Assembly: GCA_001790855.1 (NCBI GenBank)
Contig: MGDH01000004.1
Coordinates: forward strand, 2,350 to 66,349
Length of the DNA: 64,000 nt
Direction: 5' to 3'
DNA from: Candidatus Schekmanbacteria bacterium RIFCSPLOWO2_02_FULL_38_14
GTDB lineage: Bacteria; Schekmanbacteria; GWA2-38-11
Made by a program: the position numbers and the translations under genes. Below, one piece after another: positions 52,937 through 62,951 of the stretch; position 1 is the first letter of the stretch, and every line of letters begins with the position of its first letter. The notes under the pieces were generated by a model. That model had not been told where the DNA came from, made no database searches, and was given only the letters and a program-made list of their open reading frames with translations.

Positions 52937-53221
52937 TTATCTATGGTATAAATCTTCAGCTATATCCTCTAACTCCAGTTCCAGCAATTTTTCCTTTTTA
53001 GGAGCCGTAGTTTCTTTGTCCCAACCGCGGCAGTCATAATAGTCGTCAAGCATTTTTTCAATACCCTCTTTTTTAAACGTTTTTCCCCTCCATTTATCAC
53101 CATCAGCTGGTTTTTCAAAAAACATTGACGGCACTCTGTCATTCTTTCTGCTAAAGCCGCCAACTCTGAGATTAAACGCCTGCTCAACAGGCAAAACATC
53201 ATCTATTATCAATCCCCGCAA
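52937..53221 (-). pseudogene. C-terminal remnant of aldehyde ferredoxin oxidoreductase
   Basis: A 94-codon frame, TTG-initiated, matching the C-terminal end of tungsten aldehyde:ferredoxin oxidoreductases: AFNLRVGGFSRKNDRVP, MLDDYYDCRGWDKETTAP, KLLELELEDIAEDLYHR. Full enzymes are about 600 residues, so 500 are absent. It is adjacent to, and overlaps, the ferredoxin-AOR chimera upstream in another frame. The enzyme is not functional. Confidence 0.7.
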
Positions 53222-53628
53222 ATGGTCTGTTCAAATTCCTCGCTCCCTTTCCCGATTCTTGATGCTGCAACCTTCTGCCCATCACACAGAATTTCTCCAA
53301 ATCCCTTTTTATGAGCCATCTGCTCAATAAGCGAATAGACTGTTTTAAAATTTCCCCATTCAAGCTTTATCCCTTCTGTATCCTCGCTTTTTGAAATTGC
53401 ATTAACAGGGCATGCTTTCTGGCACGGAGGGTTTTTGCAGAGCTTGCAGGTTACAGGGTAATCTATGAGATGTTCAACTGTAACAACCCTTATTCTTGAA
53501 AGCCAGGGGGCAAAAATTCCTTCATGCCTGAATGAACAGACTATCTCGCATAGCCTGCAACCAGAGCAAACAGCAGGGAATTTACCTTCTTCAAGAATTA
53601 TTTTTTTATCTTTAACCATAATTTTCAT
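53209..53628 (-). pseudogene. Ferredoxin joined to internal AOR segment (deletion product)
   Basis: 139 residues. Residues 1-80 are a 4Fe-4S ferredoxin with CSGCRLCEIVCSF and CKLCKNPPCQKACPVNAI; after that the expected second CxxCxxCxxxCP is missing. From about residue 86 the sequence is that of the middle of an aldehyde oxidoreductase (LEWGNFKTVYSLIEQMAHKKGFGEIL, SRIGKGSEEF). A deletion has therefore fused the ferredoxin gene to the AOR gene. It then stops while the C-terminal AOR end continues in another frame. The ferredoxin domain may still fold; the enzyme is lost. Confidence 0.65.
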
Positions 53629-53694
53629 TTGAATTTATAAACAAAAACTGTAATGTCAAATGAAATATGGCAAACAAACTTGATTCAACTTTGG

Positions 53695-53719
53695 GTAGTG
53701 GCAGGTCTCCTGACCTGCC
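53695..53719 (+). repeat. REP palindrome, family 1 (GTAG foot)
   Basis: GTAG at 53695-53698, then the palindrome GGCAGGTC-TCCT-GACCTGCC at 53700-53719. It is one of the two REPs flanking the transposase remnant, at its 5' end. Confidence 0.8.
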
Positions 53720-54004
53720 ATCAAGAAATATGAAATATAGTGAAGGCTATCACTTTATTACAATAGTGACAAACAATCGTATCAAGGCATTTAAATACAA
53801 AGAAATAGCTATGATAGCTATAAAGGTAATTTCATTTTATGAAAAGAGGTTTGATTACAAACTTATAGGATTTATTATTATGCCATATCATATTCACTTT
53901 ATCTGTGAACCAATTAAAAATATTTCTAGTTATGAAAATCCTCTTAGGAAAGGTTTATGCAATGATATATTTGATTACGAGTTCTCAGATATTAGACGGT
54001 ATTT

Positions 54005-54027
54005 CGGGTCAGGAGACCCGAAGCTAC
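54005..54027 (-). repeat. REP palindrome, family 1 (GTAG foot), inverted
   Basis: On the minus strand, GTAG (54024-54027), then CTTC and the palindrome GGGTCTCCTGACCC. It is the opposite-orientation partner of the REP at 53695, at the 3' end of the transposase remnant. Confidence 0.78.
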
Positions 54028-54053
54028 CCTGACTTATAAACAATTTCATATTC

Positions 54054-62159: not shown

Positions 62160-62951
62160 CTAGAACTGTTTTGAATTTGGAATTTGTGATTTGGAATTTA
62201 ATGCTTCCCCTTCCTCTTTTGTTCCTTCAATGAACTTCAAAAAATCCTCTTCAATTCTTTCTGTTTCTTCTTTTAAAGGAAAATGCTTGGCAAATTTTAC
62301 CAAATCAGTTGTCAGAAGAAAATCCCTGCCAATCAAAAAATGGCTTTCTGGAAAAATTCCTGTTTTCTGAATTAATGGAATAATCTCTTCCGAGGTTCGC
62401 TCAGTGGCAGGGAATAAAAACCTTTTTTCAAGGTATCTTCTGAAAATTTCAGAAAAGGCAAAATAAAACTTTTGGTATTCCCCGTTCTCTAAGAATCTTT
62501 TTTCCTTTAGCTGAGTAAGCTCCCTGAAAGCAATCTCATGTGGAGGTATGAAAATCTGAGCCTCAGTTTTTTTCTTCCTGTTCTTAAAATAAAAATAACC
62601 CAACAGGACAAGGCATATAAGGATTATTATTATTGCGGCAATTAATAAAATTTTTCTGTAGTCTCTTTCTATTTTCTCAAGTGGTTTAATATCAATAATA
62701 TCCCTTTCCCTGCCTTCTGATAATCCCCCTGAATCCCCCTTTGTCAAAGAGGGACTAAGGGGGATTTTTTCTTTTTCAAAGGAAGATGATAGCAGGTCAG
62801 GAGACCTGCCACTACCCTGGGTAGAATCGGGTCTCCTGACCCTATTTTCATTAATCCCTAAACTGTTCTGCGAAAAAAATGCTCCCATTGAAAGAGAATA
62901 GACTAACAGGATAAATATTAATGAAAACAACAGAACCTTTTTTGAAATCAT
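62160..62951 (-). CDS. Bat-cluster membrane protein (DUF4381-like) with repeat insertions
   Basis: A 263-residue protein: signal or anchor helix (1-27), a linker, then a second helix (KILLIAAIIIILICLVLLGYFYF, near 101-123) and a cytoplasmic helical domain typical of the small protein between DUF58 and BatA. The linker (about 36-80) is built of repeats read in frame: two REPs (62792-62842, giving RPDSTQGSGRSPDL) and a CCCCCTTT hairpin unit (62703-62767, giving SPSLTKGDSGG). The last residues (NSKSQIPNSKQF) come from the AT-rich repeat. Its start abuts the DUF58 stop. Confidence 0.8.
   Translation of the reverse strand: MISKKVLLFSLIFILLVYSLSMGAFFSQNSLGINENRVRRPDSTQGSGRSPDLLSSSFEKEKIPLSPSLTKGDSGGLSEGRERDIIDIKPLEKIERDYRKILLIAAIIIILICLVLLGYFYFKNRKKKTEAQIFIPPHEIAFRELTQLKEKRFLENGEYQKFYFAFSEIFRRYLEKRFLFPATERTSEEIIPLIQKTGIFPESHFLIGRDFLLTTDLVKFAKHFPLKEETERIEEDFLKFIEGTKEEGEALNSKSQIPNSKQF
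62792..62842. repeat. Head-to-head REP pair, family 1, inside a coding sequence
   Basis: GCAGGTCAGGAGACCTGCC with CTAC at 62812-62815 (GTAG on the minus strand), five bases, then GTAG (62821-62824) and GGGTCTCCTGACCC. It is the same family as the REPs at 53695 and 54005, arranged divergently (BIME-like), and lies in frame within the gene at 62160-62951. Confidence 0.8.

Follow-up and report, generated by a model that had tools for sequence, protein, structure and literature searches.

A REP-associated tyrosine transposase gene with an internal deletion between inverted REPs in Candidatus Schekmanbacteria

In a REPtron, a gene for a Y1 HUH transposase is enclosed by a pair of GTAG-footed REPs in inverted orientation; the gene is present in single copy and the REPs are scattered (Nunvar et al. 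2010, PMC2817692). The standard description of these REP-associated tyrosine transposase genes (RAYTs) is that they are single-copy and vertically inherited (PMC8049555). In E. coli TnpAREP, Tyr115 is the catalytic residue, and Y115F is a catalytic mutant (PMC8266576). In TnpAREP subclass 2.4, REPs are found in the transposase frame between the HUH motif and the tyrosine, and the frame is left unbroken (Quentin et al. 2018, PMC6006769). Di Nocera et al. 2013 (PMC3733652) describe REPs within ORFs as well as REPs that extend over the 5' or 3' end of a RAYT gene. Neither the overlap of REPs with RAYT ends nor the presence of in-frame REPs between HUH and Tyr is new to the literature. Schekmanbacteria, an uncultured phylum, do not appear in the accessible part of Di Nocera et al., and a literature search found no paper treating Schekmanbacteria together with transposases; a REP-RAYT system in this phylum seems not to have been described before.

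The DNA analysed here (the window) is a stretch of 64,000 nucleotides from a Candidatus Schekmanbacteria draft genome of 2.68 Mb in 43 contigs. It holds a REPtron with a shortened RAYT. The gene layout, the single copy, the scattered REPs and the position kept in orthologues are as in the REPtrons of Nunvar et al. 2010, but the window copy is without its catalytic half and the REPs lie inside its frame. The RAYT here is also more conserved than its neighbours, the opposite of the rapid evolution reported in PMC2817692. The arrangement of subclass 2.4 is seen in two relatives: L047, from a metagenome-assembled genome (MAG) labelled Nitrospinae, has a third REP after HIHMICEP, and L007 has two REPs after HIHGII. 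The window copy and its orthologue in Ca. Schekmanbacteria GWA2_38_11 (hereafter G001), in contrast, have no internal REP, and the window deletion begins near that position. Set against Di Nocera et al., the difference is that REP-encoded RAYT ends are conserved here between two phyla. Full-length relatives share the predicted fold and the WQ-x-Y-NP motifs of E. coli TnpAREP (PDB 4er8), at 23% identity over the fold, whereas the REP stems at the window locus are perfect and lack the E. coli bulge.

The shortened RAYT frame

The preliminary description of this DNA took the frame at 53667-54032 for an internally deleted REP-associated tyrosine transposase (RAYT/TnpAREP), an assignment that is confirmed. 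The features of the locus are as follows.

53667 to 54032, plus strand: internally deleted RAYT (TnpAREP) frame of 121 codons; the C-terminal tail is retained, as is the N-terminal half as far as the HUH strand
53693 to 53720, plus strand: left REP (subtype TGGCAGG) with a GGGTAG foot, a 9-bp stem and a 4-nt TCCT loop; in frame, encoding GSGRSPDLP; identical in the G001 orthologue
53889 to 53897, plus strand: HUH motif HIH in the context MPYHIH; the conserved Asp of MPDHIH is changed to Tyr
53928 to 53931, plus strand: deletion junction; net 195 bp (65 codons, in frame) absent relative to G001/L046, with the catalytic Tyr removed
54003 to 54029, minus strand: right REP (subtype CTTCGGG) with a GGGTAG foot, an 8-bp stem and a TCCT loop; in frame, encoding FGSGDPKLP, then a TGA stop

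Both the HIH motif and the YENPLRKG end attributed to this frame are present, and it contains zero stops and zero frameshifts. Pfam PF01797 (Y1_Tnp) matches the frame at profile positions 6-63 of 121 only. The NCBIfam model NF047646, 'REP-associated tyrosine transposase', gives a partial match of 44 bits against a cut-off of 80; the fragment falls under the cut-off because the frame is truncated, and full-length relatives exceed it with 93 and 103 bits. The IS200 model NF033573 scores 16 bits on the same fragment, placing its Y1 HUH domain nearer to RAYTs than to IS200.

A scan of the genome contigs and of related genomes identified a full-length orthologue (L046, G001:C146) in G001, which belongs to the same family as the window genome and to a different genus. 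The two loci are syntenic, with a 4Fe-4S protein gene upstream on the opposite strand, an FAD oxidoreductase gene downstream and alignable flanking DNA. The window frame is 66-67% identical to the full-length orthologue, and 81% identical across the globally aligned codons. The segment with the catalytic tyrosine had been proposed to be missing, and the syntenic orthologue demonstrates this directly. The deleted block spans from just past the HUH strand to just ahead of YENP and includes the WQ-FY helix and the catalytic Tyr. Five full-length relatives all have this Tyr, which corresponds in the alignment to Tyr115 of E. coli TnpAREP. The tyrosine that survives in YENP lies two residues downstream of the catalytic position. 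The window copy keeps HIH and has lost the catalytic Tyr; judged from these residues, it is a broken RAYT member, not a working one. It is the sole gene of its kind in the genome and occupies the same locus as in G001.

No convincing long microhomology for a direct-repeat deletion was seen at the RAYT junction. An in-frame internal REP such as that of L047 was considered as the cause of the deletion and rejected; the IKNIS residues at that place are kept in the window, and no REP remnant is present.

The AlphaFold model of the stump is uninformative, being a low-confidence half domain with a pLDDT of 49. The model of the full-length relative L047 has a pLDDT of 74.7 and matches TnpAREP 4er8 in Foldseek with an E of 2e-8, and this relative is predicted to share the TnpAREP fold.

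The REPs and their family

GTAG-footed palindromes had been reported at both ends of the unit (53695-53719 and, inverted, 54005-54027). They are present and intact, and they also lie within the reading frame. The left REP consists of GGGTAG at 53693-53698 and a stem-loop at 53699-53720 on the plus strand; the right REP consists of GGGTAG at 54029-54024 and a stem-loop at 54022-54003 on the minus strand and has one mismatch to the orthologue in about 30 bp. Folded as single-stranded DNA, the two REPs form much stronger structures than shuffled sequences do, with z values of -4.6 and -4.9. The TGA stop of the frame directly follows CTACCC. Two inverted GTAG-footed REPs likewise surround the gene in G001 and G060.

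The dispersed REPs were counted with a 24-nt REP pattern at <=3 mismatches, with the reversed pattern as control. The window genome has 33 matches (control 0), G001 has 36 (control 5) and the Nitrospinae MAG holding L047 has 15 (control 2); at <=2 mismatches the counts are 23, 23 and 12, respectively. With 33 matches against a control of 0, the REPs of the RAYT ends are dispersed in the window genome above chance, and the family thus holds up with many further copies. Most copies in both Schekmanbacteria are head-to-head pairs, CTACCC-(0-1 nt)-GGGTAG. The family members proposed at 62792-62842 are real and form one such pair.

62790 to 62846, no strand assigned: dispersed head-to-head REP pair; left subtype on the minus strand, right subtype on the plus strand; feet CTACCC-T-GGGTAG

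Each of the dispersed pairs checked (17/17) is composed of one left-type REP (GGCAGG or variant) and one right-type REP (ATCGGG or variant), the two subtypes found at the ends of the RAYT unit. Such a pair looks like those two ends joined together, and this may reflect the route by which pairs form. Two pairs have a counterpart at the orthologous site of the other Schekmanbacteria genome, one of them with compensatory stem changes; the others were not seen as shared. In the syntenic region L123/L107, each of the two genomes has a REP unit that is absent from the other. For the pair at 62.8 kb, no REP-bearing syntenic site was found in G001, G002 and G003.

Other repeats were observed as well. 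Another dispersed palindromic repeat, with many matches in G001, is located just upstream of the 62.8-kb pair at 62719-62781. In G001, a miniature unit (L107 1997-2073, G001:C144) has left and right REPs in the RAYT-unit orientation with only a short spacer, and resembles a fully deleted REPtron. A short repeat around GATTGCTTCGGG..CTCGCAATGAC has two copies, at 1114 and 52824.

Neither of the observations that would have spoken against the preliminary description was made: REPs of this family are numerous in the genome, and the nearest full-length relatives of the window frame carry the same pair of end REPs and are RAYTs, not unrelated IS200 elements. The complete gene that it proposed to look for is found in the sister genome G001, but not elsewhere in the window genome, where the other Y1 proteins have different palindromes or none. 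The REP family of the window genome looks orphaned, with no other gene bearing these REPs. A second REP family, GATAGGCGGG, has 64 copies in the window genome and 105 in G001. Its RAYT is intact and lies between the two subtypes of that family (L002 1384-1914, G000:C22), with an orthologue, L060, in G001. The third RAYT-like gene, L007 (1213-1767, G000:C15), contains its two REPs as an in-frame insert, placed after HUH and before Tyr, that encodes GATLAVAQKKRAGARPAPT; a similar REP pair is found at L005 2870-2930.

Inactivation of the RAYT and alternative readings

The preferred reading, with a probability of about 0.8, is that the REPtron was inherited at this site and that its RAYT was recently inactivated in the window lineage by the internal 195-bp deletion. 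The common ancestor of the two Schekmanbacteria genera would already have had a REPtron here, with a single RAYT gene enclosed by inverted REPs. By analogy with TnpAREP proteins, the intact enzyme would earlier have bound GTAG-footed single-stranded hairpins, used its catalytic tyrosine to cut near them and scattered the REP pairs. After the deletion, the stump would retain half the fold and the HUH histidines, and DNA cleavage would be impossible. Structural conservation, and the fact that they are scattered already, would explain why the hairpins have outlasted their own cognate enzyme.

Codon changes in the retained part of the RAYT were polarised with L047; the numbers are small and 11 codons are unpolarised. 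On the window branch, 9 changes are synonymous and 1 is nonsynonymous; the ratio is 6:5 for the G001 branch and 14:8 for that of L047. Under neutral drift, so few nonsynonymous changes on the window branch have a P of about 2.5e-5. The sole polarised nonsynonymous change on this branch is the Asp to Tyr change before the HUH motif. The synonymous excess means, therefore, that the RAYT worked until recently or that the stump is still constrained. The portrayal of the gene as decaying is still the best reading, in a weaker form than first stated, since the retained part shows no relaxed constraint so far: the break is probably recent or, less likely, the stump has been kept.

The adjacent genes have changed as well. 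At 52937-53628 on the minus strand, the 4Fe-4S (ferredoxin) gene continues in frame into internal sequence of an aldehyde ferredoxin oxidoreductase gene, to which it is fused. The oxidoreductase gene has lost further internal segments, and its frame is disrupted. Because these adjacent genes are intact in G001 and carry deletions in the window, the segment appears to be eroding, and the clean deletions in both genes favour such local erosion.

It is unlikely that the deletion arose in assembly, or represents a single allele in a mixed population, and that the living organism has a full-length gene. The draft state of the assembly, with its 43 contigs, would allow for this, as would the several clean deletions clustered nearby and a retained RAYT sequence that appears as conserved as in a working gene. 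However, clean internal deletions are rarely produced by assemblers, and the RAYT interior is unique and non-repetitive. The frame break caused by one neighbouring deletion and the mutation of the HUH Asp are both expected under real decay. The chance is minute that the frame is instead the remnant of an unrelated IS200/IS605 insertion lying among the REPs by accident. The Y1_Tnp domain is common to IS200/IS605 and this frame, but NF047646 outscores NF033573 in the window fragment and in every full-length relative, the gene is single copy and in three genomes has a REP at each end, and the nearest solved structure to a full-length relative is TnpAREP (Foldseek). The full-length orthologues already contradict an IS200/IS605 origin.

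A deletion has a 1 in 3 chance of being in frame. The in-frame deletion, the lack of stops and the 9:1 ratio fit a recent break and would also fit a stump under selection. The truncated frame might thus encode a REP-binding protein that is catalytically dead and has been retained, for instance as a repressor or a competitor whose target is either the REPs or the other RAYT, and the REPs are indeed untouched. This is distinctly unlikely, for the stump is seen in one genome only, its HUH context is mutated (D to Y), its predicted structure is of low confidence and the neighbouring genes are eroding likewise. Moreover, the GTAG-contacting residues of TnpAREP (Q95, R104 and neighbours; PMC6006769) align with the deleted block. 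It is very improbable that the in-frame stump has been domesticated as a cleavage-dead REP-binding protein now in control of either the REP population or the second RAYT, with the REP hairpins doubling as conserved coding sequence for its ends.

If the RAYT was inactivated recently, as preferred here, the two related genomes represent a roughly dated natural knock-out, in which a common REPtron locus has an intact RAYT in one genome and a broken RAYT in the other. The second REP family, whose RAYT is intact in either genome, serves as an internal control, and the pair could reveal the decay rate of an orphaned REP population. The locus also extends REP-RAYT systems to Schekmanbacteria.

A related RAYT in a Nitrospinae MAG

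L047 (1979-2551) is the RAYT of the MAG labelled Nitrospinae, with REPs at both ends and the third in frame between HUH and Tyr. It is found at another locus than the RAYT of the window and G001. The interior of this RAYT is 32% GC, compared to 45-47% GC in its flanks. Its nucleotide identity to the window fragment, at 75%, is no lower than the 73% that separates the two Schekmanbacteria in the neighbouring FAD gene. Among 289 relatives of the Nitrospinae MAG that were searched, only distant RAYTs (24-40% identity) were found besides that MAG. That such a close relative, itself AT-rich, sits in a higher-GC genome from a different phylum points to horizontal transfer in a system usually called vertically inherited, and these comparisons suggest that the RAYT unit was transferred between phyla, with mis-binning of L047 a residual possibility. 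REPs of the RAYT-end family are also present on other contigs of the Nitrospinae MAG.
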